Source: Candidatus Dependentiae bacterium
Lineage (GTDB): Bacteria; Babelota; Babeliae; Babelales; Vermiphilaceae
Direction of reading: 5' to 3'
Assembly (NCBI GenBank): GCA_040878395.1
Contig: JBBDMI010000010.1
Coordinates: forward strand, 1 to 64,000
DNA length: 64,000 nt
Shown: one piece after another, positions 1,784 through 19,563 of the stretch
Numbering within the stretch: position 1 is the first letter of the stretch
Layout: each line of letters opens with the position of its first letter
The notes under the pieces: generated by a model
The model's database searches: none
What the model saw: the letters and a program-made list of their open reading frames with translations, nothing else
Told to the model about the DNA's origin: nothing
Made by a program: the position numbers and the translations under genes

Positions 1784-1813
1784 TTGCTATAAATCAGATT
1801 TATTTACTATAAT
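1784..1813 (+). promoter_or_regulatory. Sigma-70-type promoter of the HIT gene
   Basis: TTGCTA (1784-1789), an 18-bp spacer and a perfect TATAAT (1808-1813), ending 35 bp before the ATG at 1849. The same spacing and a similar -35 occur in front of the next two genes. Confidence 0.6.
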
Positions 1814-1848
1814 TAAAGTAAAAATAATCTTTGTTAATAAAGGCAAAT

Positions 1849-2346: not shown

Positions 2347-2371
2347 TTAATGCATCAACAATACTGACCAT

Positions 2372-2401
2372 TTGCCTATACATCACTTTTTGCTGTAAAA
2401 T
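2372..2401 (+). promoter_or_regulatory. Sigma-70-type promoter of the secreted gene at 2435
   Basis: TTGCCT (2372-2377), an 18-bp spacer and TAAAAT (2396-2401). The surrounding bases (CATTTGCC, TTTTTGCTGTAAAAT) closely match those before the gene at 2967. Confidence 0.55.
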
Positions 2402-2434
2402 GCTATAAACAAAGCATAAACTTACTGGAATAAT

Positions 2435-2851
2435 ATGAATAAAAGTTTAGCATATATTTTAATTGCATTTTTATACATGAAAACAAATTGTGCAGAGACT
2501 TCTGAAGATATATTTGATATCACAGCACTCCAATCAATAAAAGATGAAAACCCCTGTGATATATTTCAATTCATAAAGCCATTACCAGAATTCAAAGTAA
2601 TTAAATCACCAACTCCCCCGATACCTGAACATGAACTTGAATACATTAAGCAAGAATTCAATGCAATCCATCAACAAACTGAAAGAATAGAACTTCTATT
2701 GCGAGCTATTTTAGATCGCTATGACACTCAAGATGTAATAATTGAAAAAACCATCGAGCCAACACAAAAAAACCTTCCCAGGAAAAGAAAGCGCAAGCAA
2801 AATAATATAGATAGATCTACTTCATGCAAAAAAAATCAAAGTCAAAATTAA
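2435..2851 (+). CDS. Small secreted protein with basic, NLS-like tail
   Basis: 138 residues, family not recognised. Residues 1-20 form a signal peptide ending near NCA|ET. The mature part begins with SEDIFDITALQS, then a Pro-rich stretch (SPTPPIPEHE), a short amphipathic helix, and a basic tail including PRKRKRKQ. It has the same plan as the next gene (signal peptide, IF-DIT motif, Pro-rich linker, Lys-rich part), so the two may be diverged paralogues. Export is inferred from the signal peptide; the basic tail might bind nucleic acid or act as a nuclear targeting signal in a host, but nothing here proves that. Confidence 0.7.
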   Translation: MNKSLAYILIAFLYMKTNCAETSEDIFDITALQSIKDENPCDIFQFIKPLPEFKVIKSPTPPIPEHELEYIKQEFNAIHQQTERIELLLRAILDRYDTQDVIIEKTIEPTQKNLPRKRKRKQNNIDRSTSCKKNQSQN

Positions 2852-2893
2852 ACACAACTAAATAATCCCGTTTGCTCTAGATAAGTTTATCAT

Positions 2894-2923
2894 TTGCCCA
2901 TTAAGCCTTTTTTACTGTACAAT
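2894..2923 (+). promoter_or_regulatory. Sigma-70-type promoter of the secreted gene at 2967
   Basis: TTGCCC (2894-2899), an 18-bp spacer and TACAAT (2918-2923), the same spacing as the two preceding promoters. Confidence 0.55.
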
Positions 2924-2966
2924 ATGAAAAGATTAATATATTTGCAATCACCCTGACAGGACAAAT

Positions 2967-3362
2967 ATGCATATGCCAACCCTATGGATATTTTTAACGG
3001 TATCTTTACAAACAATATATTGCGCAGACAATAATATCTTTGCAGATATTACTTTAGATTCGACATTCCTCAAAGAGCATACCGAACTCATGCAACCAAA
3101 AAAATCACCCTGTTTGCCGCTCTTACCAAAAAAAACTCCTCAAATAAAAATAACTCCAGCAATAAGGAAAGAGACCGAAAAAACAAAATCTATTAAAAAA
3201 GTAGCTAAACATAAACATAACAAAAAAACTTGTTTACCTAACGAAGAAAAGAAAAAGCAATTAATTGAATGGCTCTATCAAGATTTTATAAAAAATTTTA
3301 ATGCACTCACTCCAGAACAAAGCAATATGATATTTATAAGCCTTGATAACCTGCAACACTAA
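2967..3362 (+). CDS. Small secreted Lys-rich protein
   Basis: 131 residues, no recognised family. The N-terminus is a signal peptide ending at about YCA|DN. The mature chain starts NNIFADITLDSTF, comparable with EDIFDITALQS of the preceding gene, continues through a Pro/Lys segment (CLPLLPKKTPQIKITP) and a strongly basic block (KKVAKHKHNKKTCLP), and ends in a predicted helix. AGGA precedes the ATG at 2967. Likely a paralogue of its neighbour; role unknown. Confidence 0.65.
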   Translation: MHMPTLWIFLTVSLQTIYCADNNIFADITLDSTFLKEHTELMQPKKSPCLPLLPKKTPQIKITPAIRKETEKTKSIKKVAKHKHNKKTCLPNEEKKKQLIEWLYQDFIKNFNALTPEQSNMIFISLDNLQH

Positions 3363-3570: not shown

Positions 3571-5262
3571 GTGAATAAAAAAAAGGTGTGTTTATACCTT
3601 ATTCTATCTATAAAAACGTTGTCTGCAGCTAGTCCTGAACCCGGAACGCGCGTTTGGAATATTGCTAATGAAAACTTATCATTCGCTGAAATTATTGAAA
3701 GCCAAGTTGAGGTCATTACTCAAGTAGAAAATGACCTTATCGGCACACAAACCGTTGTTGAGGCAATGCTTGCAAAAATATGCAGTGATGTTGATGCGCT
3801 TTCACAAGATATTGGTATAGTCGATGGTATTAACTCATTACTCCCAATCTTTGACGGCAAAGTTACTGAACTTGAAAAGGATTTTTTACAAACATGGACC
3901 ATCCTGGATGAACTTGAAGAAACACTCTGCAGCGATATTGATAAAGCGCTCACCGTTAATAGTTTAGTTGATACACTTTCGGTTGTAGCGGTAGATTTTT
4001 CAACAGTCTTTACTGCCGTCAATGCATTACAAGAAAAAGTGTCTTCAATTAACAATAGCCTTGAAACTACCGACTCATTAGTCGATGTCATACCACAAGA
4101 AATTGAAGTCATACAAACATACACCGCACTTGATGCATTACTGGAACTTGAATGTAGCACACTAGATTATCTTTTAGCAGTAGCAACATCACTTGAAATC
4201 ATAACTAACTCTTTCGGCACAGCAATCACCGCTGCCGATATAGGCACAGCCGGATTTACTATAGGCTCTTCGGGAAAATATATATTAACTGAAAATATTA
4301 ACTTTTCACCTTTAAGCGCTGCTACCGCCATTACTATTGCAGCAGACGATGTAACGCTTGATTTATGTGGTAACACATTGTCACAAGCAAACAGTGATAC
4401 CGTTGCCGGAGTAAAAGCAATAAACATGAATAATCAAGAAAATGTAACCATTAAAAATGGAACCATTTCAGATTGGTCAGCACAAGGAGTCGATCTTCTT
4501 TCTTCTTCTGAGATAATTTTGCAAAATATATCAATTAACCAATGTGGTCGAGGAGCATCAACACAAGCCGGCTTTAACTGTACAAGTTGCACCGATATCT
4601 ACTCACTAAACGTTAATTATTCACAAAACTATGATGAAGCCATCATGATCCACGCAAGTAACGACATAATCCTAAATGATAATACTCTTTACACAAATAA
4701 CGAAAGTGCTGCTGCTGCCGCCGCATTGCATATCGATAACTCTGAAGTGGTATATATCATCAACGCAGAAATCGTAAGCACCACCAATGGACGAGCCATT
4801 ACAGCCAGCAACTCACGTGCTGTCACCGTTGAAAATTGCAAAATAATTCAAAATGAATTAGGCGGCGTACAATTTGTTGATACCGGTACATCAACCATTT
4901 GGTACTCTATGATACTCAGTAATACTTCTGATCTTGTCTCTACCACAACCGGTATAGAGATTGCCGGATCGAGTGGGTTAAATGAAGTTGTATATAACGC
5001 CATCTCTGATCATCAATCTGATGGCATTAGCGTTGCAGGCTCTGCAGCTAATAATTATATTGCCTTTAATAATATCGAAAATAGTGGAAATGTGGGCATC
5101 TCAAATTTTTCAAGTAACACCAATTCTATTGTTGGAAATTATGCGTTTAAAGAAAGCGCATCAGCCTACACAGATGTGGTCAATACCGTTACGGTCAGTC
5201 AAACGGGTGTCTTTCCACCGACACCACCTTCGGCATGGCAAAATATCAATATGAATTCATAA
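3571..5262 (+). CDS. Secreted right-handed beta-helix protein, array member 1
   Basis: 563 residues, GTG start with an AGGAG Shine-Dalgarno 6 bases upstream. A signal peptide ends near residue 20 (LSAA|SPEP). PGTRVWNIA follows directly. Residues ~30-200 hold three copies of an amphipathic repeat (variants of DFxxTFTxLDAxxxKxC). At ~225-265 comes the block SSGKYILTENINFSP then ITIAADDVTLDLCGNTL, the first rungs of a parallel beta-helix; Asn/Ser/Ile-rich rungs such as VTIKNGTIS run to ~520. The C-terminus has IVGNYAF and PPSAWQNINM. No catalytic site of a pectate lyase or sugar hydrolase is apparent. A structural, adhesive or glycan-binding surface role is inferred. A Lys-rich N-region and 24-bp spacing to the next gene suggest co-transcription. 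Confidence 0.75.
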   Translation: MNKKKVCLYLILSIKTLSAASPEPGTRVWNIANENLSFAEIIESQVEVITQVENDLIGTQTVVEAMLAKICSDVDALSQDIGIVDGINSLLPIFDGKVTELEKDFLQTWTILDELEETLCSDIDKALTVNSLVDTLSVVAVDFSTVFTAVNALQEKVSSINNSLETTDSLVDVIPQEIEVIQTYTALDALLELECSTLDYLLAVATSLEIITNSFGTAITAADIGTAGFTIGSSGKYILTENINFSPLSAATAITIAADDVTLDLCGNTLSQANSDTVAGVKAINMNNQENVTIKNGTISDWSAQGVDLLSSSEIILQNISINQCGRGASTQAGFNCTSCTDIYSLNVNYSQNYDEAIMIHASNDIILNDNTLYTNNESAAAAAALHIDNSEVVYIINAEIVSTTNGRAITASNSRAVTVENCKIIQNELGGVQFVDTGTSTIWYSMILSNTSDLVSTTTGIEIAGSSGLNEVVYNAISDHQSDGISVAGSAANNYIAFNNIENSGNVGISNFSSNTNSIVGNYAFKESASAYTDVVNTVTVSQTGVFPPTPPSAWQNINMNS

Positions 5263-5286
5263 TAAAAAATAAAAAAAAGGAGCTAC

Positions 5287-6882
5287 ATGAAAAGAATAAA
5301 AATGAAGCTGATTCTTTTGAGCCTCATATGTATGCCGATTGGCCTGCATGCATTAGTTAATACAACACCCGGTACACGAGTGTGGGACATCATGAATCAA
5401 ACGCAATTAACCGATGTGACCGTCTGCAGTATTTTGGACACTATAAGCACATTAGATATTACAGCCGATTTCACCGAACTGTTTACAACTATCGATGAAG
5501 TGCAAAGTAAGGTTTCACTTTTGCCCCCTGAATTAATGGGGGTAATTCCAAAAGCTGAACAGCTCAACTCAGGTCTTGATGTAATCAATCAAGAGGTCAA
5601 TCAACTCGGCCAAGATTTTCAATCAACCTGGACAATCCTGGCAACGATTACTCAACAAGTATGCAACAGTTTAGCATTGGCAAGTGCTATTGAAAACATT
5701 GAAATACAAGCCGAATCCAGTGTAGATTTCACCGATACATTTACCCTTCTTGATGCAATTGAAAACAAACTGTGCACTGTTGACTCAAAAGTTGATATCA
5801 CACAAAATTTAGTTAACAACATAGACAATCAAATAGTCAGTGATATAACCGGTACCTTCACAGCGCTGCAATCAATCCTTGATCTGCAATGCTCTGATGC
5901 CGACACATTGGAAAATTATGAAACAACCTTAGGCACCCCATTATCCAATGGCAGTTCATTAACACAAATAACTATCAGCTCTCCCGGACGCTACTATCTT
6001 ATAGAGGACCTAACATATGAACCAGCGTCATCTCCAAAAATAACCATCTCTTCCAGTGACGTCTATCTTGATCTGAACAATAAGTTGATAGTACGATTCG
6101 ACTCTACGGCGAGTTCTACAACAGCAATAAATATTGAAGATAATGCATCAAATGTCGTAATTACTAGTGGGACTCTTAGCAATTCAGCTTTCAATCCCCC
6201 AACTACAGCTATTAGTATCGGATCAAACTGTACCTATTGCATTTTTAAAAACTTATTCTTTCAAAGGCTCACTGTAGGATTTGAGAGTACAGATCTGACT
6301 AATGCCATTTATAAAGATAATTCTTTTTTTCGTTGCGCTGAATCCTTAGCAAATATTGGCGGATCAAACCAACAAATAATAAGGAATGTCAACTCAATAA
6401 TTTCAGGCATTCCTTCATCAGCTTTCATTCCTGCTGACAGCAAACAGATTTTCTTTTATAATTTCAATGCTCAGAAATTAATTGAAGGATCAAACATTGT
6501 AGTGGAAAACTGTGCATCAGATCTCTTTGATGACACAGTAACGCTATCAAGTACTTCAACTAATTGCACCATATGGCACAATGATTTGCGCGGGGACACG
6601 CAATCAATGCAGGCATCAGGAGGCACATCAGGAAAACATGAAATAACATCTAACAATATGGTTGGTCATATTGATTTCTCCATGACAGACTGCTTCATTG
6701 CATTTAACAACATGAAAGGGTCGCTCATTGATCTTCCACAAGATGCAACATTAGGTAACTACAACTTTGGAGCTTATGTTGCAGGTGGATCAGGTGATGC
6801 CAATGCTGTGTCATTCAGCGAAGGAGGATCCTTCCCTTCTCCTGCACCGGAATATTGGAATAACTTGGCAGCATCACATTAA
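5287..6882 (+). CDS. Secreted right-handed beta-helix protein, array member 2
   Basis: 531 residues beginning after a clear AAAAAAAGGAG site. Signal peptide ~1-22 (GLHA|LVN), then TPGTRVWDIM. Four repeat units follow (FTELFTTI, FQSTWTIL, FTDTFTLL, ITGTFTAL), each trailed by a Cys-containing segment such as KLCTVDSKVD. The helix entry is SPGRYYLIEDLTYEP and ITISSSDVYLDLNNKLI at ~235-280. The C-terminal module is TLGNYNF and FPSPAPEYWNNLAASH; the usual final NIxM is changed to NLAAS, making this one of the more diverged C-termini. It starts 24 bases after member 1 and has no terminator behind it, so it probably belongs to the same transcript. Confidence 0.75.
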   Translation: MKRIKMKLILLSLICMPIGLHALVNTTPGTRVWDIMNQTQLTDVTVCSILDTISTLDITADFTELFTTIDEVQSKVSLLPPELMGVIPKAEQLNSGLDVINQEVNQLGQDFQSTWTILATITQQVCNSLALASAIENIEIQAESSVDFTDTFTLLDAIENKLCTVDSKVDITQNLVNNIDNQIVSDITGTFTALQSILDLQCSDADTLENYETTLGTPLSNGSSLTQITISSPGRYYLIEDLTYEPASSPKITISSSDVYLDLNNKLIVRFDSTASSTTAINIEDNASNVVITSGTLSNSAFNPPTTAISIGSNCTYCIFKNLFFQRLTVGFESTDLTNAIYKDNSFFRCAESLANIGGSNQQIIRNVNSIISGIPSSAFIPADSKQIFFYNFNAQKLIEGSNIVVENCASDLFDDTVTLSSTSTNCTIWHNDLRGDTQSMQASGGTSGKHEITSNNMVGHIDFSMTDCFIAFNNMKGSLIDLPQDATLGNYNFGAYVAGGSGDANAVSFSEGGSFPSPAPEYWNNLAASH

Positions 6883-6939
6883 CTCAAAGACTTATTTAGT
6901 GATGAAATGTTAAAAAAAATTTAACTTTGGATATGAATA

Positions 6940-8589
6940 ATGAAACTAACTCCACATATTTTTCTTTTGATACTTACAGTATGTTTTTCAATAGAAGCTG
7001 CCCCTCCCGGAACACGGCTTTGGGATTTAGCAGCACAATCTGGAAATATTATCAACACCACACAAACCAAACTTGAAGCAATAAGCAACCAAGAAATTGA
7101 TTACTCAAAAACTATAACATTACTCAATGCAGTAGAATCAAAAGCATGCGTTGCACTCACCTTAACTGACATTCTTGATTCTGCCATTGATGTTGCAGGA
7201 CCTGGCGTCGGACTCATTGATATGCGCCTTGATGATCTAGCAAATGATTTTGATCAAACATGGACCATTCTGGCAGCAATTGAGACGAAATCAGAATCTT
7301 TGGAAGATATCTTAATTACAGTCGAAAGCAAGCTCAACACTATAGATGCTGAAATATCTGTAGATTTCACAGAACTATTTACAGCACTGAATGCAGTACT
7401 ACAAGAATCATGCTCTGCTGATAGCGCTGTTGATACCATAAATAGTAAACTTGAAAATCTATCCATTCAAATCGATTTGAGCGGAACATTTACCATCATC
7501 GATGCAATTAACGAAAAAGCATTAACCATCCACAGCATAATTGATACACCTAATTGCTTCCCAATTGAAATTAAAGAGAGCGATATAACCACATCCGGCT
7601 TTTCAATTGACGCACCGGGCAATTATATTTTAATTGATCATATAACATACAATCCGGATAGCACCAATACTGCAGCAATTACCATCGCAAGCAATAATGT
7701 AAATCTTGACTTGAATGGACACACTATCGATCAAGGTAACTCAGCCGTTGGTACTCATGGCGTTGAAGTCATAACAAATCTTTCAAATATTCAAATACGC
7801 AACGGAACCATTCGAGATGTACAAGATGCAGGCATAAGTATTAATAATGGATGCAGTGACTTACTTATTTCTGATGTAATTATTATAGCATCAGCAACAG
7901 CTAATGGTATTGATATCGCAAGCAATTGCAAAGAAATTACCATTCAAGAAACATTAATCGGTGAATGCCAAACTGATGGCATCAGCATCGCATCCGGCTG
8001 TACTGAAATGCTCATTGCCGAATGTATGTGCAATGAAAATGGTCAAGGTGGAACCGGCAGCGGCATACGTATCACTGATGCACAAGTATGCTTTACAAAC
8101 TGCATCACAAATAACAATAATGATGATGGTATCAGCATGTCAGGCAACAGTAATTACACACTCAAAGAGTGTAAAGCATTTGCAAATGGTCAACATGGCT
8201 TTCTATGCACGAACGTTCAAAACTCAGTATTTTCACAATGTGTTGCAAAAGAGAATGGAACAAACGGCATACATTTAGATAACTGTGAACGCATTGAACT
8301 TATTGAAAATATCAGTTCCCGAAATCGTAACAATGGATTGACCCTTACCGGTGGCACAAGACGCTGCTTGATAGAAGGTAATTACTTACTATTCAACGAC
8401 AATATAAATATAGAAGAAATTGCAGGATCAGGCGGAAACTCAATGCTCAGTAATTTCACACTCAATACAACCGATGAAAAAAATCGCACTCTAGCAACAA
8501 CAAGCGACAGTTCATTTTCAAGCGAAACACAAGGAGTTGCTTTTGCCGGAACCACGCCATCTCGATGGAATAATATTAGTATGACCTAA
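6940..8589 (+). CDS. Secreted right-handed beta-helix protein, array member 3
   Basis: 549 residues. Signal peptide to about residue 20 (SIEA|APPG), then PPGTRLWDLAAQ. Four repeat units (YSKTITLL, FDQTWTIL, FTELFTAL, LSGTFTII) fill ~30-200. The beta-helix starts at APGNYILIDHITYNP / ITIASNNVNLDLNGHTI and has the most regular rungs of the array: IQIRNGTIRD, LLISDVII, ITIQETLI, MLIAECMCNENG and so on, roughly every 22-24 residues. C-terminal module MLSNFTLNTT...TPSRWNNISMT, nearly shared with member 4. The Shine-Dalgarno is weak (TTTGGA). Closest to member 4 by eye, suggesting a recent duplication of this pair. Confidence 0.78.
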   Translation: MKLTPHIFLLILTVCFSIEAAPPGTRLWDLAAQSGNIINTTQTKLEAISNQEIDYSKTITLLNAVESKACVALTLTDILDSAIDVAGPGVGLIDMRLDDLANDFDQTWTILAAIETKSESLEDILITVESKLNTIDAEISVDFTELFTALNAVLQESCSADSAVDTINSKLENLSIQIDLSGTFTIIDAINEKALTIHSIIDTPNCFPIEIKESDITTSGFSIDAPGNYILIDHITYNPDSTNTAAITIASNNVNLDLNGHTIDQGNSAVGTHGVEVITNLSNIQIRNGTIRDVQDAGISINNGCSDLLISDVIIIASATANGIDIASNCKEITIQETLIGECQTDGISIASGCTEMLIAECMCNENGQGGTGSGIRITDAQVCFTNCITNNNNDDGISMSGNSNYTLKECKAFANGQHGFLCTNVQNSVFSQCVAKENGTNGIHLDNCERIELIENISSRNRNNGLTLTGGTRRCLIEGNYLLFNDNINIEEIAGSGGNSMLSNFTLNTTDEKNRTLATTSDSSFSSETQGVAFAGTTPSRWNNISMT

Positions 8590-8640
8590 TAGAAACGGTC
8601 AAATATGAATCCGAACACTGTTAATAAAAGGATAATTTCT

Positions 8641-10278
8641 ATGAAACAAAAAGCCTATTTTCTTACACTATTTTTTATAACTTATTCAATCACCATGCTT
8701 GCATCTCCTGCCGGGACTCGACTATGGGATATCACAGCAAGCATAGGTCCACAGTTTGTGACTATTGAAAGTAAACTTGAAACAATTTCTGTCAATGAAG
8801 TTGATTTTTCAGGTGTATTTACCGCATTAGATGCATTACAAAAAGAAGTGTGCACCGTAGATAGCTTAGTTGATGTTTTCGACACATTAGTCATTGATGC
8901 CGGAGCAACTACCGGGGCAATTGACAAAAAACTTGATGATTTAGCTCAAGATTTTGATGAAACATGGACCATTTTAGCAGCTTTAAACCTAAAAGCAAAA
9001 CAGATCTGTACCTCACTGGAAAATGCTGAATCAAACATTGATAATGCAGACATTACCGTTGCATTAGATTTTTCCGGCATATTTACTGCAATAGAAGCAT
9101 CACAACAAAAAGCATGCACGATTAACAGCAAAGTTGAAACAATTAATAATCAGCTTGAAAACATTGATATCGATATCAGTGGAGACTTAAGCGGAACCTT
9201 TACTCTTATCGATGCCATTGAAGAAAAAGTACAAAGTATCAATGATAGCTTAAGTGTAATTGATGCAGCAGCTAATATCATAGGAATTCCAATATCAGAT
9301 GCTGACTTACCCCTTAGTATTTCCTCATCCGGATTTTATTATGCAACAGAAGATCTTTCGGGCAATATAGAATTTGATACTTCCGGTGTACGTAATGTTG
9401 TTTTAGACCTAAATGGTTTCACTTTAACCGGCAGAATTTTTTCTTCCAGCTCAGGAGGTGTAGAGGGCCTCATAATTCAAAATGGACGTATAAAATACAG
9501 TGAGGATGACATCATAATCGACTTCTTTAACCCTTCAGCATTTGCTAATGTCATTATTAGAGACCTACACATAATCAATACCGGAGGCGTTGATACAATC
9601 CGTTTAGGAAGTCTCTCCAACGCATTTTTATTTGAAAATGTTATTATTAAAGCAAACTTTAGCGGTATCAACACAAACAATGACACCGTGGGCCAAGAAA
9701 TGATTGCTCGCAACTGTTTTATAACAGCTACTATTGGGACAGCTTTTGCAACCGCATTACGGCTTGAAAACTGTATAGCAAAAAACAGTGGTCGAGGATT
9801 CTTTTTCAGGAACGTCAACGCCTCCAGTGCACAAAACTGTAAAGCAACCAATTGCTCTTCTAGCGATGGCTTTTCTATCAGACAAAGCTCCAATATTGTA
9901 AATTGCATTTCAAAACTAAACAGTCCTAACGGATTTAATCTGTCGCGAGCTGCTGCCGGCATAACAAAAACCCTACAAAACAATATCAGTTCGGCAAACA
10001 GTTCAGCAGGAATTAATCTCACCTCAAGTGCAAATAGCCCATCAAGCGAACTCGTTAAAGATAATATATGCCTTTTTAATAGCACAAATATTAATCAAAC
10101 CGGTACGGGAAATGTTTCATTACTTGGTAACTTCACGCTCAATACCACAACAGCCGGCAATCGAACACTCAACAACACAAGCACGACCACCTTTTCAAAT
10201 CAAGTACAGGGAGTTGATTTTACAACAACGAGCACAATATTGCCAACACGATGGAATAATATCAGTATGACCATTTAA
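8641..10278 (+). CDS. Secreted right-handed beta-helix protein, array member 4
   Basis: 545 residues from the ATG at 8641, which has AAAAGG upstream; an ATG at 8605 is in frame but has no such site and would put 12 extra residues before the signal peptide. PAGTRLWDITAS follows the signal peptide. Four repeat units (FSGVFTAL, FDETWTIL, FSGIFTAI, LSGTFTLI) with CTVDS/CTINS segments. Helix entry SSGFYYATEDLSGNIEF is less canonical than in its neighbours, but VVLDLNGFTLTG is clear. It ends LLGNFTLNTT...LPTRWNNISMTI. A strong terminator follows at 10309, so this is the last gene of the first half-array. Confidence 0.76.
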   Translation: MKQKAYFLTLFFITYSITMLASPAGTRLWDITASIGPQFVTIESKLETISVNEVDFSGVFTALDALQKEVCTVDSLVDVFDTLVIDAGATTGAIDKKLDDLAQDFDETWTILAALNLKAKQICTSLENAESNIDNADITVALDFSGIFTAIEASQQKACTINSKVETINNQLENIDIDISGDLSGTFTLIDAIEEKVQSINDSLSVIDAAANIIGIPISDADLPLSISSSGFYYATEDLSGNIEFDTSGVRNVVLDLNGFTLTGRIFSSSSGGVEGLIIQNGRIKYSEDDIIIDFFNPSAFANVIIRDLHIINTGGVDTIRLGSLSNAFLFENVIIKANFSGINTNNDTVGQEMIARNCFITATIGTAFATALRLENCIAKNSGRGFFFRNVNASSAQNCKATNCSSSDGFSIRQSSNIVNCISKLNSPNGFNLSRAAAGITKTLQNNISSANSSAGINLTSSANSPSSELVKDNICLFNSTNINQTGTGNVSLLGNFTLNTTTAGNRTLNNTSTTTFSNQVQGVDFTTTSTILPTRWNNISMTI

Positions 10279-10308
10279 ACAACAACTCAAACAGTTAATC
10301 ACACGCCA

Positions 10309-10340
10309 CAGGCTCTCGAATATGAGAGCCTGTTTTTTTT
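10309..10340 (+). terminator. Rho-independent terminator after array member 4
   Basis: Perfect 10-bp stem CAGGCTCTCG... / ...GAGAGCCTG followed by eight T. The hairpin and about 40 bases after it are also present, slightly diverged, behind array member 9 at 19532. Confidence 0.85.
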
Positions 10341-10435
10341 GCCAAAAATATAAATAAACAGTATCTTTTGAATGATATAGAGAATGCGCAGACATTAGAA
10401 AGTGTATATAAGACAACTAATTGAATTTTTACATT

Positions 10436-10583
10436 TTGTCATCCTCGCGCAGGCGGGGATCCAGGCCACTGTTTTATGCTTTGGCAATGAATCATACTCA
10501 GAAATAAGTTATGCACGACGCGCCTATTGAATAATAACTGTAAATTATCTTTGCCTGGATCCCCGCCTGCGCGAGGATGACAA
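10436..10583. mobile_element. 148-bp MITE-like element with perfect 31-bp terminal inverted repeats
   Basis: Positions 10436-10466 and 10553-10583 are exact inverted copies; each contains TCATCCTCGCGCAGGCGGGG. The 86 bp between them show no coding potential. It lies directly upstream of alaS. A 67-codon frame inside gives the CHPRAGGDPG peptide well known as a translation artefact of such repeats. No transposase is present, so any movement would depend on an enzyme elsewhere. Confidence 0.75.
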
Positions 10584-10616
10584 GATATAACATGCCTCTT
10601 GCAAAAGGTTTTACCA

Positions 10617-13223
10617 ATGAAAACGAAAGAACTCCGCCACAAATTTTTCGATTTTTTTAAAAAACATGGTCATGAACAGGTTTCAAGTTCATCTTTAATT
10701 CCCGCGCAAGATCCAACACTCCTTTTTGCCAATGCAGGAATGAATCAGTTTAAAGACCTCTTTTTGGGCAAAGAAAAACGGAGTTACAATAAAGCAGTTA
10801 CTATTCAAAAGTGTGTACGAGCAGGTGGCAAGCACAATGATCTTGATAATGTTGGATTCACTAAACGGCATTTAACCTTCTTTGAAATGATGGGGAATTT
10901 TTCATTTGGTGATTACTTCAAAAAAGATGCGATCAGATACGCCTGGGAATTTTTAACCAAAGAATTAGATCTACCTATTGAAAAACTTCATGTTTCAGTG
11001 TTTGAGACTGATGATGATGCTTATAATATCTGGAAAGATGAAATGGGTGTCGATCCAAAGCATATTCATCGCCTTGGTGCTGCAGATAATTTTTGGCAAA
11101 TGGGCGATACCGGTCCATGTGGCCCTTGTACTGAAATTTATATTGATCGTGGTCCTGAAAATGGCTGCGGCAATGCTGATTGTGCCCCTGGATGTGATTG
11201 CGATAGATTTCTAGAACTTTGGAATTTGGTCTTTATGCAATATGATCGCCAACCAAATGGCACTGATAAAAACTTAACGCAAACCGGCGTTGATACCGGT
11301 ATGGGATTAGAGCGAGTCGCCGCAGTCCTGCAAGGCAAAGATTCAGTCTATGAAACCGATATTTTCATGCCAATTATCAATCACATATCTAAAGTTACCG
11401 GCATTGATTACACCAAACAAACGGGTGAGCTAAAAGCAGCATTTCAAGTTTTAGCAGATCACATTAGAAGTTCATCGTTATTGATTGCCGATGGCTGTGC
11501 ACCATCCAATGATGGTCGCGGTTATGTGTTACGTAAAATTATTCGCCGTGCAGCATTATTTGCACAAAAATTATCTGATGATCAACAACTATTTCCAAAC
11601 TTAAGCACAATTGTGATTCAAGAACTTGGTGAGGTATATCCCACATTAAAAACCAAACAAAAACTGATCAAAGAAGTTTTGAAAAGCGAAATAGATAAAT
11701 TTGCAACAAACTTGGTACGCGGCAAACAAATCTTGCAAAAGTATATGGATGAACATCAAGACAGCAAACTGATTTCAGGCGAGCAAGCATTCAAAATGTA
11801 TGACACCTATGGGTTTCCTACCGAGCTAACCGAACTGATTGCAAACGAGCATGATTTTACGGTCGACATGGAAGAATTTGCAACTCACATGGCACAACAA
11901 AAAGCACAATCAGGCAAAAAAACAACTGATCCTTTTGCGCATATTAAAAATTTAGATGAACATATTTCATCTGAATTTACCGGTTATAATGAACTTGAAA
12001 CAACATCCAACATAATTGCTCTTGTCCATGATTTTGAATCGGTTGAACATGTTGCTGCAGGAAACACGGCGTTTGTTATTGCCAAAAAATCCCCCTTCTT
12101 TATTGTCGGTGGAGGCCAAGTTCCTGACAATGGCTGGCTCACTATTGGTGATAAAAAAATACCTATTAAATCAGTGCGGTATATCAAAAAAGGTATTGCA
12201 GCTGAAATTGAAACGCCAGTTGATATCAAAGTTGGTGATGCAGTTATTTCAACCGTGCATGAAAAAAAACGCATCGATGCAATGAAAAACCATACTGCAA
12301 CGCACTTATTGCAAGCAGCGCTTATGCAACTTTTTGGCAATCAAATTAAACAATCCGGTTCATTGGTTCATCCTGACTATTTACGATTTGATTTTACCTA
12401 CCATACCACATTAACTGAAGCTCAAATTAAAAAAGTTGAAGATATAGTCAATGAAAAAATTAGAGCAAATATTCCTGTTGATATTACACAAATGACCTAT
12501 CGTGATGCAATTAAAATGGGCGCATTAGCATTCTTTGGTGATAAATATAATCCTGAAAATGTACGTGTCGTTAATGTTCCTGATTTTTCAGTTGAACTGT
12601 GCGGCGGAACCCATGTGCCTCGCACCGGTGACATTGGCACCTTTAAGATTACCCAAGAGATAGCACTTGCAGCCGGCCATAGACGCATTTTTGCAATAAC
12701 CGGACCGAAAGCAATAAATTTATATCAAGAAACATTCAATACGGTCAAAAACTTAAGCCAACTGTTTAAAGTTAAACATGAACAAGTATTGCAAACCGTT
12801 GAAAAACTGAATACACAACACAAAGAGTTGCAAAAAGAGCTGAAAAAAACACAACAACAATTATTGCAAACACAAATGTCATCGCTCATTGATCAAATAG
12901 AAATGATCAATAATGTACCATTCTTATTTACTATCTTCAAAGATATGCCAATAGATACACTCAAAGAAAGCATGCTGCAATTGGCAAACAAAAAATCCGG
13001 ATTTTATTTTTTTGGCAGTGAAGGCACTGATCGAGTAACTTTTGTTGCAACGATGAGCGATGAACTTGCTGATCACCTTGATATTAAGAAATTCAGTACA
13101 TGGCTCAAAAAAAATGCCAACTTGCGTGGTGGCGGAAGCAAGAATATCTTGCAAGGTGGAGGCGCCACATTTGATGCAAACTTAAAGAAAAATATCATAC
13201 AATGGATTATAGATAATAATTAA
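10617..13223 (+). CDS. alaS: Alanine--tRNA ligase
   Basis: 868 residues, the usual length. It charges tRNA-Ala in the cytoplasm. The N-terminus (LRHKFFDFFKKHGHEQVSSS, then LLFANAGMNQFKDLFLG) is the class II catalytic domain; the editing domain carries NHTATHLLQ near residue 556 and CGGTH near 661-665, the four zinc ligands of the family; a helical linker and the DHHA1 domain follow, ending in GGGSKNILQGGG. A TTG at 10599 is in frame, but AAAAGG 8 bases before the ATG at 10617 decides the start. It sits alone between the two halves of the beta-helix array, immediately behind the inverted-repeat element, with no operon partner. Confidence 0.96.
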   Translation: MKTKELRHKFFDFFKKHGHEQVSSSSLIPAQDPTLLFANAGMNQFKDLFLGKEKRSYNKAVTIQKCVRAGGKHNDLDNVGFTKRHLTFFEMMGNFSFGDYFKKDAIRYAWEFLTKELDLPIEKLHVSVFETDDDAYNIWKDEMGVDPKHIHRLGAADNFWQMGDTGPCGPCTEIYIDRGPENGCGNADCAPGCDCDRFLELWNLVFMQYDRQPNGTDKNLTQTGVDTGMGLERVAAVLQGKDSVYETDIFMPIINHISKVTGIDYTKQTGELKAAFQVLADHIRSSSLLIADGCAPSNDGRGYVLRKIIRRAALFAQKLSDDQQLFPNLSTIVIQELGEVYPTLKTKQKLIKEVLKSEIDKFATNLVRGKQILQKYMDEHQDSKLISGEQAFKMYDTYGFPTELTELIANEHDFTVDMEEFATHMAQQKAQSGKKTTDPFAHIKNLDEHISSEFTGYNELETTSNIIALVHDFESVEHVAAGNTAFVIAKKSPFFIVGGGQVPDNGWLTIGDKKIPIKSVRYIKKGIAAEIETPVDIKVGDAVISTVHEKKRIDAMKNHTATHLLQAALMQLFGNQIKQSGSLVHPDYLRFDFTYHTTLTEAQIKKVEDIVNEKIRANIPVDITQMTYRDAIKMGALAFFGDKYNPENVRVVNVPDFSVELCGGTHVPRTGDIGTFKITQEIALAAGHRRIFAITGPKAINLYQETFNTVKNLSQLFKVKHEQVLQTVEKLNTQHKELQKELKKTQQQLLQTQMSSLIDQIEMINNVPFLFTIFKDMPIDTLKESMLQLANKKSGFYFFGSEGTDRVTFVATMSDELADHLDIKKFSTWLKKNANLRGGGSKNILQGGGATFDANLKKNIIQWIIDNN

Positions 13224-13337
13224 AAACTTGGGCAGATGCATTTAAATCTTAATTTAAAAGACATTTTTTCCTACTTAAACGAGAAATGAGCAACGAAATA
13301 TAACTTTTTTTTAATATCAACACGTTCTCTCTATTTT

Positions 13338-13379
13338 TGTTGAAATTTTTTTTAAATTTTGCCACAGTGTAAAAAAAGC
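13338..13379 (+). promoter_or_regulatory. Upstream block shared by array members 5 and 9
   Basis: TTGAAATTTTTTTTAAATTT then TGCCA lies upstream of the gene at 13402; a close copy is at 18032-18071 before the gene at 18095. Conservation in non-coding sequence suggests a promoter region. I cannot assign -35 and -10 boxes with confidence. Confidence 0.4.
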
Positions 13380-13401
13380 TAAAAAAAAAGAGAGAGTAAA
13401 A

Positions 13402-14760
13402 ATGATGAAACAAACTAAATTAATAACAGGTGCACTGTGCTTGTTACCTATCTATATATCTGCAACATCGCCCCAACCGGGCAAGCGCATGTGGGATATT
13501 GCAGCAGAAAATGAAATTATTTTCAACACTATCGAAAGTAAAGTATGTGTATTAGCCGATACAGATCTGAACACCGTTTTTACAGTAATTGAAGAACTTA
13601 ATCAAAAAACAAGCGTTAATGATAGCAACGTTGATACGCTCGATTCATTAGTTGATAGTATAAATGAAGTACGTACCGACTTTGAACAGGCACTCTCTAA
13701 CGTGTGTTTGCTTGAGTCTGAAATACAGTCGGCCGCTGATAATGTGATTGATGCCAACGATGCAATTGGCCAGGTTATCACCGATGCAGATGTCGGCCTG
13801 ACCGGCACAACCATTGGATTACCAGGCAAATATATTTTATGCGAAGAGATTGATACCTCAGCAGCTGTTGCAATAACCATCGCATCAGATGATGTTGAAC
13901 TTAATTTTAATGGCTTTGCCATCAGAAATGCGGCAATTGCAATAGGCATAAATTCTGGATTTTCTAATATAACCGTTAAAAATGGCTTTGTTGTTGATAC
14001 CACCGGAAACAGCATTGATGTTGACACCGCATCATCTGTAACCTTTGAAAATATTTGGATAGATAACAGTTCATCAAATGGTTTTAATATTGACACCTGC
14101 TCAAATGTTACCATTAGAAGTTGTCTAGCAGCCAGGTGTATTACGAATCAAGTAAATATTTCCTCATCAGATAATATTCTCATCCAAAAATGTTTATTTG
14201 GTGATCGAGCAGCTTCTGGTACGGCAGCAGGTATTGCTTGCTCAAGCTCATCTCGTATTACCATACAAAAATGTAACATGAGCAATAATCTTGGCCGGGG
14301 AATAGAATTCAGCAACTGCGACACATTTGAAATATTCAATTGCATGTGCTCAGCTAACTCCCTCGAAGGTATAAGGCTAACTACTTGCAGCAATGGACTG
14401 CTTAGAGAAAACTTTTGCATTGACAATGATACTCAAGGCATTCATTTGCTCACAAATGGCACGCAAATAAAACTGATAGGCAACATTTGCAGTGGCAGCG
14501 TATCCTTATCAGAAGGAATTAGACTTAATGAGGTAACCAACTGTTATGTGTTTGAAAATATTGCGTTAGGCAACAGCAATACCAATATTAACGAGTCTGC
14601 TGGGGGCCCGAATACGTTTTTATCAAATTGGGCACTCGGCAACTCGTCTTCAAGCAATTATATTTCAACCACTTCAACTATAAATAGGGTTACTATAAAT
14701 CAAGGCATTAGCTCTTCTTCGCAACCCACCAAGTGGCAAAATATCGATATGAGATTTTAG
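13402..14760 (+). CDS. Secreted right-handed beta-helix protein, array member 5
   Basis: 452 residues. Signal peptide to ~20 (YISA|TSPQ), then QPGKRMWDIAAEN. The repeat region is short: one clear unit (LNTVFTVIEELNQKTSVNDS) and a second diverged one. Helix entry LPGKYILCEEIDTSA / ITIASDDVELNFNGFAI at ~140-180; rungs such as ITVKNGFVV, VTIRSCLAAR, ILIQKCLFGD, ITIQKCNMSN, with a Cys in many of them. C-terminal module FLSNWAL and QPTKWQNIDMRF. Tandem ATGs at 13402 and 13405 are both usable. First gene of the second half-array, with its own upstream block. Confidence 0.76.
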   Translation: MMKQTKLITGALCLLPIYISATSPQPGKRMWDIAAENEIIFNTIESKVCVLADTDLNTVFTVIEELNQKTSVNDSNVDTLDSLVDSINEVRTDFEQALSNVCLLESEIQSAADNVIDANDAIGQVITDADVGLTGTTIGLPGKYILCEEIDTSAAVAITIASDDVELNFNGFAIRNAAIAIGINSGFSNITVKNGFVVDTTGNSIDVDTASSVTFENIWIDNSSSNGFNIDTCSNVTIRSCLAARCITNQVNISSSDNILIQKCLFGDRAASGTAAGIACSSSSRITIQKCNMSNNLGRGIEFSNCDTFEIFNCMCSANSLEGIRLTTCSNGLLRENFCIDNDTQGIHLLTNGTQIKLIGNICSGSVSLSEGIRLNEVTNCYVFENIALGNSNTNINESAGGPNTFLSNWALGNSSSSNYISTTSTINRVTINQGISSSSQPTKWQNIDMRF

Positions 14761-14780
14761 TTAGAAAAAATAATTTCACT

Positions 14781-14807
14781 TCCGGCCTTATAGAAACTTA
14801 GGCCGGA
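14781..14807 (+). other. GC-rich hairpin just before the start of array member 6
   Basis: TCCGGCCT and AGGCCGGA form an 8-bp stem with an 11-base loop, ending 17 bases before the preferred ATG at 14825. No T-run follows, so it is not a classic terminator; it may stabilise the upstream mRNA end or affect translation of the next gene. Confidence 0.5.
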
Positions 14808-14824
14808 TAATCGGGATGATAAAA

Positions 14825-16225
14825 ATGAAGTACACGAAAATAAGTTTAATGCTTAGTCTTGTTGGCTTAACCATGATTGCCACCACGCCGACATCCGGCG
14901 AACGCATTTGGAACATTCTTGCTCAAACTGAAGATATCGCCATCACAACAGATAGCAAATTTGATACCATTACATTAGATTTTACCGGCGTATTTACCGC
15001 CTTGCAAGAGATTGACAATCGAGTCACCCAAGATGTTTCTAAACTTGATGAAATTTCTATCGCGACATTCGATCCATTCATCTTTACAACAGCGATGTTA
15101 TCAAAGTTGGAAATAACACAAAGCCTCATTGCCCCAATTGAAAGTTCAATTGATAGTTTAGATGATTGTATTGGAACCGCAATCACTCAAGAGAATGTTG
15201 GTACCACCGGTTTTTCAATCACAACACCCGGCAGATACTTTTTGGCGGAAAACATCACCTTTAGCCCCGCATCAGATATTCCCGTGATCGATATCGACGC
15301 AGATGAAGTGTTCTTTGATCTAGGTGGGTTCACCATCACGCAAGGCAATACGCAACTAGGCGCTATAGGGATTGTAGTACAGAGCCCGCATAGAAATATT
15401 GTTATCACAAATGGCACCATACGCAATATGCTTGGCGGCGGCATTCTCACGAATAGTGGTGATGTTTCAAACCTTATTCTACGTAATCTGACGATACTGA
15501 ACGCCGGTATTGGCCCAGGAGCATCGGGTAATTCAGCCGATGGCATTGAGTGCCTAGCCGGCACTAATCTTATCGTTGACAATATTATTTGTGATACCTG
15601 CCAAGATGAAGGCTTGGATCTAACTACAAGGGATAATGGAATAGTTATGGATAGTAGTTTTAGCAACTGCCGAGGGACAACAGGAGGAGGCTTACAAGTT
15701 GATGACGGTGCTCAGCATATACTTATAACAGATTGCATAGCGATAGCCAACAAGGGGAGTGGCTTTGCCCGTAGTGGCCCCGGTAATAATCCGAGCAATG
15801 TATATTTAAACTGCCAAGCACTCACAAACGACATTACAGGTTTTGATGTTAGTGCCTGTCCCCGTGCAGTTATACTGCATTCAGTGGCGAATGGAAATGG
15901 AGATGATGGCATACTATCTAACAGCTCCGATCAAGTTATTACGAAAAACTTATGCATCGGCAATGGAAGAAATGGCATAAGAATCACAGGAAATAACGAT
16001 AATAAATTCATTTTTCGCAATACATTGATTGAAAATGGTGCTGACAATATTGATGAAACTAATGCAGGTGCAGATAATAGTTACTTGGGCAACTATGCAT
16101 TTAGTTCAACTGGCGCTAATTATACTACTGCGGGCGGCTCCGTCATAAATAGCACCGCAGTAACCACCTCTTCTGCATTTTCAACGCAACCGGCATTTTG
16201 GCGCAATATTGATGCATCGCCATAA
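14825..16225 (+). CDS. Secreted right-handed beta-helix protein, array member 6
   Basis: 466 residues from the ATG at 14825; GGGAT seven bases upstream fits this better than the ATG at 14816. Signal peptide then TSGERIWNILAQT. One full repeat unit (DFTGVFTALQEIDNRV) and a degenerate second. Helix entry TPGRYFLAENITFSP, then a Phe-rich variant FFDLGGFTITQGN. Rungs run to ~420 and include IVITNGTIRN and VIMDSSFSNC. C-terminal YLGNYAF...QPAFWRNIDASP, where the last Met is lost. Base composition is a little richer in GC than other members, notably around 15300-15800, which may reflect a different duplication history. Confidence 0.75.
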   Translation: MKYTKISLMLSLVGLTMIATTPTSGERIWNILAQTEDIAITTDSKFDTITLDFTGVFTALQEIDNRVTQDVSKLDEISIATFDPFIFTTAMLSKLEITQSLIAPIESSIDSLDDCIGTAITQENVGTTGFSITTPGRYFLAENITFSPASDIPVIDIDADEVFFDLGGFTITQGNTQLGAIGIVVQSPHRNIVITNGTIRNMLGGGILTNSGDVSNLILRNLTILNAGIGPGASGNSADGIECLAGTNLIVDNIICDTCQDEGLDLTTRDNGIVMDSSFSNCRGTTGGGLQVDDGAQHILITDCIAIANKGSGFARSGPGNNPSNVYLNCQALTNDITGFDVSACPRAVILHSVANGNGDDGILSNSSDQVITKNLCIGNGRNGIRITGNNDNKFIFRNTLIENGADNIDETNAGADNSYLGNYAFSSTGANYTTAGGSVINSTAVTTSSAFSTQPAFWRNIDASP

Positions 16226-16273
16226 TTTTTTATTTTTTTAATACTACCGACTCAGTTTTAAGGATTGATTATT

Positions 16274-17698
16274 ATGAAGCAAAAACATTTATTATTAAGT
16301 GGTACACTGTTTTTTTACGGATTAGCTTTAGCAGTTTCTCCCGCATCTCCAGGAGACCGTGCTTGGGATATTGCAGCAAATGTCGAAGTTTTAGCCTGCA
16401 CTATTGAAAGTAAAGTATGCGCACTGGATTTTGAAGATTTTTCTGAAACTTTTACTATAATTGATGACATTATCAAAAAAGAATGTTCGATGTCATCACA
16501 AATTGATGTTATTCAAAGTGAACTTGAAAATTTTACCTTTGATTTTGATGGTACCTACACAGCAATTGAAGAAGTTCTTCTTCTTGCATGCACCATAAGT
16601 TCAGAGCTGGATGCATCACTCTCACTAATTGAGGTCATACAGGAAGCATTTGGTTTTCCTATTACCAATGAACTGGTGGGCACTTCAGGATTCACCATCA
16701 CCGAAGGTGGGGAATACTACTTAGCTGAAGATATTGTATTTAATCCAAGTTCTACCGATCTGGCAGCAATAACCATTGATGCTGATAACACATTCATCGA
16801 TTTTAAATTAAAAACACTCTCAACTGATGGCACAAGTGGCACTGTTGGAGTAGAACTGCTAGGTACACATACCAATGTTCAAATAAGCAATGGGGTAATC
16901 ACAAATACTGATGCACAAGCAATTTTAATTAATGAACTTTCTGCCGACGTAGTAGTAGACAATATGCTTATCAACGATGTTGCAAATGAATCAGGTATTG
17001 AAGTAGTAAGCACAGGTACCGATATTTTCTTTACCAATGTTATCGTTACCAATTGTAATGAACACGGTATTTTAACAAATGCATCTTCAAGTATGGTGTT
17101 GCGAAATTGCGTGTGTAGTGATAATGGTAACGGCATTGGAAATGGTATGTTATTCACCGACTGCTCGGAGATTACCTTGCATAACTGTATCGCAAGTAAT
17201 AATACTGATAATGGCTTAGAATTTTCAAGCAGTACAACATCGGAAAATATTACGCTTTTTGAATGCACCACTTGGGATAATGATGGGTATGGCATTTTAT
17301 TTTCCCATATTTCCAATTCACTTATCAGTGGTGTATTTAGCAAAGGCAACACGCTGGATGGTATACACCTTGAAGATGCACTGCGTATCTCTATCACCAA
17401 CAACTGTTGCGAAAACAATGGACGTGATAATATTCGTTTGGCAACAGAATCAACCGGTACACAAAATTGTTATATCGGCCAAAATTCGTTGGTGCTCACT
17501 TCAAGTGTTAACCTGCGCGAAGAATCTGGTAGTTCTCAAAATGGTGTTTTTGGTAACTATGCATTAGCAACTTCTACTGATAAAAATTATGTTTCCATCG
17601 GTGGAGGCAGTTTTTTTAATCAAGCCACCGTTAATCAAAGCGGATCATTTCCAGCAACCGAACCAACTTTTTGGAACAATATTAACATGATAACTTAG
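16274..17698 (+). CDS. Secreted right-handed beta-helix protein, array member 7
   Basis: 474 residues from the ATG at 16274 (AAGGA ten bases upstream; a TTG at 16265 is too close to that site). Signal peptide, then SPGDRAWDIAANV. Two repeat units (FSETFTIIDDIIKKECS, FDGTYTAIEEVLLLACT) with conserved Cys. Helix entry EGGEYYLAEDIVFNP / ITIDADNTFIDFKLKTL. Regular rungs including VQISNGVITN, MVLRNCVCSDNG, ITLHNCIASNN and ITLFECTTWDND. C-terminal module VFGNYALAT...EPTFWNNINMIT. The mini-gene follows 35 bases later. Confidence 0.77.
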   Translation: MKQKHLLLSGTLFFYGLALAVSPASPGDRAWDIAANVEVLACTIESKVCALDFEDFSETFTIIDDIIKKECSMSSQIDVIQSELENFTFDFDGTYTAIEEVLLLACTISSELDASLSLIEVIQEAFGFPITNELVGTSGFTITEGGEYYLAEDIVFNPSSTDLAAITIDADNTFIDFKLKTLSTDGTSGTVGVELLGTHTNVQISNGVITNTDAQAILINELSADVVVDNMLINDVANESGIEVVSTGTDIFFTNVIVTNCNEHGILTNASSSMVLRNCVCSDNGNGIGNGMLFTDCSEITLHNCIASNNTDNGLEFSSSTTSENITLFECTTWDNDGYGILFSHISNSLISGVFSKGNTLDGIHLEDALRISITNNCCENNGRDNIRLATESTGTQNCYIGQNSLVLTSSVNLREESGSSQNGVFGNYALATSTDKNYVSIGGGSFFNQATVNQSGSFPATEPTFWNNINMIT

Positions 17699-17733
17699 AA
17701 CGTATTATCATAGTATTTAAAAAAAGGCTTTTA

Positions 17734-18000
17734 ATGCAACGCATAAAACTAAGTCTCCTGCTAAGTTTATTCTACGTGGCCTCGGTTGCATCTAACATCA
17801 CACCCACAGGACCAAGAATGTGGGAAAACACCGCTGGACCTAATTCAGTGCTGGGTAATTATACTTTGGCTAATGCATTTGCAGATAATTATATTACACT
17901 AAGTGGAAGTACCAATTTTAATCTAGATGAATTTGATCAGGTAGGAACGTTTCCATCTCCAGTACCAACTTCATGGAAAAATATGAATGTGAGAACATAG
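17734..18000 (+). CDS. Mini-member of the beta-helix family: N-terminal motif joined to C-terminal module
   Basis: 88 residues: a signal peptide (~1-19), the N-terminal motif in the form TPTGPRMWEN, and then at once the full C-terminal module starting TAGPNSVLGNYTLANAFADN and ending FPSPVPTSWKNMNVRT. All repeats and the beta-helix are missing. The last ~57 residues are almost identical to the end of the gene at 18095, and the DNA is similar too. The frame is open, and AAAAAGG lies upstream, so it can be expressed. Either an internal deletion left a relic, or the two end modules are sufficient for a function such as outer-membrane docking. Confidence 0.7.
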   Translation: MQRIKLSLLLSLFYVASVASNITPTGPRMWENTAGPNSVLGNYTLANAFADNYITLSGSTNFNLDEFDQVGTFPSPVPTSWKNMNVRT

Positions 18001-18031
18001 CTTTTTCAAGAGTTTAACTTCTTAATTCTTT

Positions 18032-18071
18032 TTATTGAATTTTATTTAAATTTTTGCCAGTTTAGAAAAAG
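18032..18071 (+). promoter_or_regulatory. Upstream block shared by array members 5 and 9
   Basis: TTGAATTTTATTTAAATTTT then TGCCAG matches 13338-13379. Its position before 18095 suggests that the last array gene has its own promoter. Confidence 0.4.
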
Positions 18072-18094
18072 AGTATAAAAAAAAGGATCTTCAA

Positions 18095-19498
18095 ATGAAA
18101 AAAAGTAATATACTATTTTTAGCATCATTCATATGTATGAATTTTCTTAATGCAACTTCAAGGCCAAAACCTGGTACACCGCTCTGGAATATTGTTGCAA
18201 GTACACAATCTATCGAGGTGATAACAGAAAGTAAATTGAGTGAATTTTCAGTTGATTTTTCCGGTATTTTTACTTCTTTAAATGAAGCACAATTAAAAGC
18301 ATCCACCATTGAAAGTCAACTTGACGTCGCTATTAGTGAAGCCGATACTGTACTATCGGATTTTTCTGGTGTCTTTACCTCACTTGATGCATTAAATGAA
18401 AAAATTGACACTGTGCAAAGCAAAACCGATGTACTTGATACGAGTATTTTTAATATTGAAGGTGCATTTGGTATTGCGATTCGTAACTCCGATGTCGGCA
18501 CCACAGGATTAACCATAACTGATCCCGGTACTTATTTCTTGGCCGAACATATTAATTATGCTCCGAGCGGAACGGGAACTGCTGCTATTACAATCGATGG
18601 GGATAACATTACCCTTGATTTGAATGGGCGTACTATCAGACAAACAAACAGTATGGGAACTACGGTTGGTGTTGAAATTGCAGCCGGTCACACCAATGTT
18701 CAAATCACTGGAGGTACCATCAGAAATTTTACTGCAGAATTAATTGATGTAAACAGTACATCAAATGGCATAAGCATCACTCATATGAATTGCTTAGATA
18801 ATGGTAGCTCGCCAGGTATTGAGCTCAGAAGTGGCATTGTTGGTGTGAATATTGACACTGTTAATATTCTCAATGCTGGCAATATCGGTCTGCGAACATT
18901 TAATGTTACCGATATGCAAATGAATAATTGTAATGTTAGCGACAGCTCAGCCGCCGGTATCCGCTTAAACGAGTCAAACAACGTATCTCTATTCAACTGC
19001 ATAGTAAATAACAATAACTTTGCAGGCCTTATTGTCGACGGACCAAGCGCAAGTACAAGAATCGATAGTTGTACTGTTGTAGATAATGGGACTGGAGGCA
19101 TTCGCGTCATAGATGCAGCCGATGATGTTCTAATTACCAACTGCTTTATTGGGCAAAATAATAGTGAAGGCATAGAAATAGGCGATAGTGACCGTATCAA
19201 AGTGATAGAAAATTACTTAAGTGAGAATACGTCGCAAAATATCTTTTTGGATGGGACGACACAAAATTGTTATGTTTTTGCTAATTGTATGGTATTGTCT
19301 ACGAGCGTAAACCTCTTAGAAGCATCAACCGCTGGACCTAATTCAGTGCTAGGTAATTACGCACTAGCAAATGCATTTGCAGATAATTACGTTACACTAA
19401 GCGGAAATACCACATTCAATTTTGATGAGTTCGACCAATCGGGAGCATTTCCATCTCCGGCACCAACTTCATGGAAAAATATGAGTGTAAGAACTTAA
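18095..19498 (+). CDS. Secreted right-handed beta-helix protein, array member 9
   Basis: 467 residues. Signal peptide (~1-20, LNA|TSR), then KPGTPLWNIVAST, where the usual Arg before the hydrophobic residue is Pro. Two repeat units (DFSGIFTSLNEAQLKAST, DFSGVFTSLDALNEKID) lacking the Cys seen in other members. Helix entry DPGTYFLAEHINYAP / ITIDGDNITLDLNGRTIRQTN is the most canonical of the set. Rungs follow to ~405 and the C-terminal module is VLGNYALANAFADN...APTSWKNMSVRT, shared with the mini-gene just upstream. A strong terminator follows. AAAGGA precedes the ATG. Confidence 0.78.
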   Translation: MKKSNILFLASFICMNFLNATSRPKPGTPLWNIVASTQSIEVITESKLSEFSVDFSGIFTSLNEAQLKASTIESQLDVAISEADTVLSDFSGVFTSLDALNEKIDTVQSKTDVLDTSIFNIEGAFGIAIRNSDVGTTGLTITDPGTYFLAEHINYAPSGTGTAAITIDGDNITLDLNGRTIRQTNSMGTTVGVEIAAGHTNVQITGGTIRNFTAELIDVNSTSNGISITHMNCLDNGSSPGIELRSGIVGVNIDTVNILNAGNIGLRTFNVTDMQMNNCNVSDSSAAGIRLNESNNVSLFNCIVNNNNFAGLIVDGPSASTRIDSCTVVDNGTGGIRVIDAADDVLITNCFIGQNNSEGIEIGDSDRIKVIENYLSENTSQNIFLDGTTQNCYVFANCMVLSTSVNLLEASTAGPNSVLGNYALANAFADNYVTLSGNTTFNFDEFDQSGAFPSPAPTSWKNMSVRT

Positions 19499-19531
19499 CC
19501 TTTATAAATTCAATATTTTTTAAAGATACCA

Positions 19532-19563
19532 TAGGCTCTCGTATACGGGAGCCTATTTTTTTT
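19532..19563 (+). terminator. Rho-independent terminator closing the beta-helix array
   Basis: TAGGCTCTC / GGGAGCCTA stem with one G-T pair and an eight-T tail. It is a diverged copy of the terminator at 10309, including the sequence that follows it. Confidence 0.85.

Follow-up and report, generated by a model that had tools for sequence, protein, structure and literature searches.

Secreted stalk-and-head beta-helix paralogues around alaS in a Candidatus Dependentiae genome: candidates for a modular surface system of host contact

Results

Eight genes on one strand of the window, a stretch of 64,000 nucleotides from a Candidatus Dependentiae genome (G000; 1.34 Mb, 97% complete), encode secreted proteins in which a heptad-periodic stalk precedes a predicted beta-helix head. 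On balance, we favor reading them as Sec-exported, probably oligomeric stalk-and-head proteins that are displayed on the envelope and whose noncatalytic heads bind glycans or proteins of the host or the environment. Elsewhere in the phylum the same stalks occur with other heads, a pattern that suggests a modular kit, so far undescribed, for host-cell contact, and no account of such a family was found in the limited set of Dependentiae papers searched. Dependentiae are widespread parasites of protists that are known mostly from metagenomes, and how they recognize and enter their hosts is little understood. The first-pass annotation of the sequence supposed an organism living in host cells; this agrees with the phylum, the cultured members of which are intracellular in protists (PMC4378268, PMC6561590).

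Organization of the locus

The locus was initially described as a tandem array of nine genes. Same-strand secreted paralogues do lie throughout 3571-19498, but the full-length genes number eight and stand in two blocks of four (3571-10278 and 13402-19498) that are split by alaS (10599-13223) (Table 1). The probable ninth member of the earlier count is an ORF of only 88 aa, which is 84% identical to the next gene, g8, over the parts that it retains. The true start of g4 may be an internal ATG at 8641. Housekeeping genes flank the array.

Table 1. Features of the array and its immediate surroundings (positions in the window)
Feature	Position	Strand	Description
Two small signal-peptide ORFs	2435-2851, 2967-3362	+	Ahead of g1, in a stretch absent from the sister species
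g1	3571..5262	+	Block 1; signal peptide, PGTRVW motif, long coiled-coil stalk, beta-helix head, C-terminal module
g2	5287..6882	+	Block 1, plan as g1; most divergent head, no Pfam match, beta-helix-like model
g3	6940..8589	+	Block 1, plan as g1; stalk about aa 27-201 (7018-7542), helix head about aa 209-530 (7564-8529)
g4	8605..10278	+	Block 1, plan as g1
Intrinsic terminator, end of block 1	10308..10333	+	11-bp stem, T-run
alaS (alanyl-tRNA synthetase)	10599..13223	+	Resident gene between the blocks; context, outside the family
g5	13402..14760	+	Block 2, plan as g1 with short stalk (about 90 aa)
g6	14816..16225	+	Block 2, plan as g1 with short stalk
g7	16265..17698	+	Block 2, plan as g1 with short stalk
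Mini-ORF, 88 aa	17734..18000	+	Signal peptide and C-terminal module only; stalk and helix absent
g8	18095..19498	+	Block 2, plan as g1 with short stalk
Intrinsic terminator, end of block 2	19531..19556	+	11-bp stem; near-identical to 10308-10333

Searched genome-wide, the core of the block-end terminators gave zero-mismatch matches to the pattern only at the two block ends, and the 3' flanks of the two copies can be aligned well past the stems. The matching terminators and flanks support duplication of an operon end in blocks whose stalk lengths now differ. A scan of public genomes yielded two members of the same genus, "Candidatus Dependentiae bacterium OFTM133" (G001), a sister species with an alanyl-tRNA synthetase 85% identical to that of the window, and "bacterium BP7.bin34" (G002). 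The sister-species locus reads membrane protein, HIT, alaS and mviN, with the array genes absent, and in BP7.bin34 an ATPase gene is placed between HIT and alaS. With the locus empty in one relative and differently occupied in the other, the array would most simply be an insertion or a lineage-specific expansion around alaS; its loss in the relatives would be a less simple alternative. Elsewhere in the window (40302-42860, minus strand) lies a gene for an 853-aa secreted protein rich in P, Q and R, which has no Pfam match; the surrounding stretch has raised GC (0.43).

Protein architecture

The eight proteins are 24 to 36% identical in pairwise comparisons of their alignment and share the plan read from the sequence at first pass: a signal peptide, P-G-x-R-x-W, amphipathic repeats, an entry motif (GxYxL...ITIxxDNVxLDLNG), helix rungs, and an LGNYxL...PTxWxNIxM end. 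The signal peptides are of the Sec type without a lipobox, and P-G-x-R-x-W, with small variations, follows them directly and leads into the stalk. The loci read contained 282 ORFs of 200 aa or more, and every match to PGxRxW among them fell on a secreted protein of this kind, in which a beta-helix, a propeller, or the stalk alone was visible. No anchor domain was found in the family proteins.

The amphipathic repeats form a stalk with a period of about 3.5, which measures about 180 aa in g1 to g4 and about 90 aa in g5 to g8. Its a and d positions hold many beta-branched residues, with V/I/L at a and I/L/V at d; this pattern predicts a coiled-coil oligomer, most likely a trimer. In the AlphaFold monomer model of g3, the stalk consists of helices with a confidence mostly below 50 pLDDT.

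Six of the eight paralogues exceeded the curated cutoff (25.9 bits) of the Pfam family Beta_helix, PF13229, with E values of 5e-12 to 7e-18, and g2 and g4 did not. Structure prediction, which covered g2 and g3, upheld the proposed beta-helix, confidently in g3 and more weakly, yet compatibly, in g2. The g3 model (AlphaFold with ten sequences) is a right-handed beta-helix at residues about 210 to 530, mostly above 90 pLDDT (288 residues with a pLDDT of at least 90), and terminates at the helix cap. Its nearest solved structures by Foldseek were the A-modules of AlgE4 and AlgE6, phage tailspikes, and the PfbA adhesin. The g2 model is beta-rich with lower confidence, and its best Foldseek matches were beta-helix proteins at an E of about 1e-3.

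The claim that both ends are kept while the helix diverges held in direction, with a modest difference: mean pairwise identity was 0.39 for the entry, 0.33 for the C-terminal module, 0.32 for the N-terminal end, 0.28 for the coil, and 0.24 for the rungs. A profile of the C-terminal module gave 18 matches, 17 of them inside the genus and one a weak exception. Beta-helix proteins from elsewhere in Dependentiae also carried the WxN end (18 of 39, with this genus included in the list), which makes it in part the last strand of the helix. The entry motif is nonspecific, since scans of viral contigs turned up a single phage with a small beta-helix protein that carries it. Overall, it is the stalk, more than the helix ends, that sets the family apart.

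Distribution and divergence of stalks and heads

Of 101 Dependentiae genomes, 12 had the stalk unit, approximately TLxSKxDxL...DFxGTFTALxA, and these belong to four families. Six other genomes that have only the helix entry in common lacked it. So did all 145 genomes taken from the phylum to which a Verrucomicrobia record belongs; such an empty result is weak proof by itself, but the same search gave strong matches in Dependentiae. Where the stalk matched Pfam families, baculovirus and others, the matches were set aside as compositional.

The stalk was associated with different heads. In two genomes it was fused to a YVTN-type beta-propeller (L049:4567-5535, L052, L056), with a signal peptide and the PGxRxW motif present in the two OFTM133 copies; another chain carried two helices (L102), and in some relatives the stalk ended without a head in a ...VIxWLKxI... 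tail. Runs of N inside the stalk repeats (L049:3766-3865, L149, L150) make lengths and copy numbers in these metagenome-assembled genomes lower bounds. Arrays of PF13229 proteins were also present in three other genomes (G010, G040, G058). Next to gyrA, the window genome has a stalk-only gene (L050:1198-1728), the stalk of which is 91% identical in DNA to that of the C2 protein, and BP7.bin34 has a stalk-plus-helix gene (L060/L065).

A phylogeny of the heads was mostly without resolution; the only supported groupings were g3 with g4, a set of four heads from OFTM133, and the orthologue pair C2/G002. The dN/dS comparison of ends and helix, which bears on the diversifying pressure proposed at first pass, gave no valid ratio in the window because silent sites were saturated or nearly so in every segment of the pairs tested, and the mini-ORF alone points to a more recent event there. 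In OFTM133, stalk stretches had a dS of 0.33 to 0.48, against saturated helix heads in the same gene pairs, and a propeller pair had a head dS of 0.05 with a saturated N-terminal end. Silent divergence that is so unequal along a single gene pair indicates segmental exchange, by recombination or gene conversion, with the qualification that these copies are located at the ends of contigs in a metagenome-assembled genome and that a strain mixture could add to some of the near-identity.

A barrel-like partner of headless stalk proteins

A secreted protein of 600 to 680 aa with a barrel-like look was found in 29 of 51 relatives. No Pfam family fits it and a barrel alternation test was not significant; judged by the look of their sequences, these proteins may be outer-membrane barrels. 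In about 12 genomes of the family, its gene directly precedes, in the same orientation, a gene for a stalk-type secreted protein, and in nine of these the stalk partner has the WLK C terminus. Loci of this conserved two-gene unit include L099, L150, L094, L098, L097, and, on contig C8 of the window genome, L149:1387-4473 (barrel-like gene, 1387-3300), where 4 nt separate the two genes and an assembly gap interrupts the stalk gene. No barrel-like gene adjoins the array; the nearest one noticed (36824-38467) lies 17 kb away and belongs to a second barrel-like family, members of which are immediate neighbors of stalk-plus-helix genes in G019 and G017, from two other genera.

Barrel-linked and helix-headed proteins can have their stalks in common. 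In BP7.bin34, a species-specific stalk repeat occurs in both proteins (1445 nt at 69.5% DNA identity). G019 likewise has such a repeat in both at the DNA level; the window genome shows a short match, and none was seen in OFTM133. A second N-terminal motif, RAPRPD(A/S), was present in barrel-linked stalk proteins and in some helix proteins (L061, L094, L099, L101, L150, L152, L161) and, among the 282 ORFs read, was confined to this kind of protein.

Comparison with enzymes, phage proteins, and known adhesins

By fold and sequence together, the closest solved structures are mannuronan C5-epimerases (AlgE4, E of 5.6e-10 by profile), and one might take the array proteins for polysaccharide-active enzymes, epimerases or lyases, carried on stalks in the manner of AlgE or of depolymerase tailspikes. 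The first-pass annotation saw no lyase active site, and the epimerase and polygalacturonase motif sets that we tested bear it out. The catalytic motif of AlgE comprises Tyr149, Asp152, and His154 (PMC7385640); the corresponding Tyr-x-x-Asp-x-His pattern, YGxDxH, was absent from all eight paralogues, and the positions aligned with these residues and with Asp178 differ. Also absent from all eight was the polygalacturonase (GH28) set NTD/DD/GHG/RxK, with GHG in none, and the residues that are invariant across the eight aligned helices, G, C, N, and similar ones, include no His or acidic residue. An enzymatic identity was thus rejected and is highly improbable. The AlgE/AlgG epimerases, PF13229, and NosD families remain the best sequence and structure matches and resemble the array proteins in fold, but the latter are without the AlgE catalytic residues, and the stalk and PGxRxW are foreign to those families. 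An origin from phage tailspikes in a prophage remnant has in its favor that Foldseek matched tailspikes and preneck appendages, yet the array proteins carry signal peptides, their neighbors are housekeeping genes, four proteins tested against PHROGs gave no match at an E of 0.001, and tblastn of g3 against 50,697 phage records gave none either; without hits or phage context, this origin was discarded as having almost negligible probability.

The order of parts is nevertheless that of some viral proteins. Phage tailspikes, the phi29 gp12 appendage, and reovirus sigma1 have an N-terminal attachment, a shaft, and a C-terminal receptor-binding part; tailspikes share the beta-helix head as well, and weak profile matches to phi29 gp12 and the sigma1 coil were seen. 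Unlike these, the array proteins are bacterial and Sec secreted, with no phage context and no sequence match to phage records. Trimeric autotransporter adhesins of the YadA type bear a head on a coiled-coil stalk, and by heptad period and a/d residues the array stalks would be compatible with an oligomer, but the order is reversed, with the stalk N terminal and the head C terminal. In Pfam searches, the YadA C-terminal membrane anchor had no match in any of the eight paralogues, and membership in that group was rejected. Chlamydial Pmps are a multigene family of secreted right-handed beta-helix proteins with an adhesin role in an intracellular bacterium (PMC2997323, PMC10715098). The array resembles them as a multigene secreted family of that fold and differs in the N-terminal coiled-coil stalk before the helix. 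Membership was rejected, with no GGA(I/L/V) repeat in the eight paralogues, only one or two FxxN per protein, and no Pfam match to a C-terminal autotransporter barrel. Overall, the family would act like chlamydial Pmps and stalked adhesins and has the part order of phage receptor-binding proteins, while lacking the defining features of each.

Surface display and its alternatives

The array was singled out at first pass as a candidate host-interaction or surface-coat system. A secreted, apparently noncatalytic, duplicated, and diverging family fits a role in host contact or at the surface; its display is what we infer. The N-terminal end would anchor at the cell, the coiled-coil stalk would serve as the shaft, and the C-terminal head would face outward and bind its glycan or protein ligands. 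The barrel-like protein, which elsewhere in the genome is paired with a headless stalk protein, could be part of the anchor. The family would then diversify as genes duplicate, heads diverge, and stalk segments are exchanged, with one stalk type serving many heads.

The missing membrane anchor would suit soluble effectors that leave by Sec and a type II-like route, act through their heads in the host vacuole or cytoplasm, and use the coil for oligomerization. For Dependentiae, the reported routes of export are Sec and a type II-like system. In Babela, no secretion system other than type II has been reported (PMC4378268), and signal peptides occur in 44% of Chromulinavorax CDS (PMC6561590). Long extensible stalks, the pairing of a stalk protein with a barrel-like protein, and the combination of one stalk with many heads all suit display better than free diffusion, and we regard soluble effectors as unlikely. 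A structural coat or fiber, in which the proteins build a surface layer or an appendage and have no receptor function, would explain head divergence as drift under weak constraint; many copies, a stalk chemistry common within a genome, saturated heads, and the absence of demonstrable positive selection agree with it. However, one would expect a pure lattice protein to keep its lateral surfaces, whereas the head is the least conserved part here, and head types are swapped between propeller and helix, so that a coat is distinctly unlikely.

Within the reading as displayed binding proteins, a more specific arrangement is possible, and we offer it tentatively: a barrel-like protein of the outer membrane, together with the stalk protein paired with it, would form a base, on which recombining stalked tips with beta-helix or beta-propeller heads would dock through matching species-specific stalk repeats. 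Heads for host contact would then be exchangeable on a common shaft. A stalk so far seen only in this phylum, exchangeable heads, lineage-specific arrays, and silent-site mosaicism yield named candidate genes for host recognition, and a bacterial example of one shaft with many heads beyond phages and classical autotransporters.

Among viral models (BFVD), the best fold matches to the g3 model were beta-helix proteins of Klosneuvirus, Edafosvirus, and Hyperionvirus, giant viruses of a group that infects protists. The likeness is at the level of the fold only, and a host niche shared by Dependentiae and giant viruses is conceivable.
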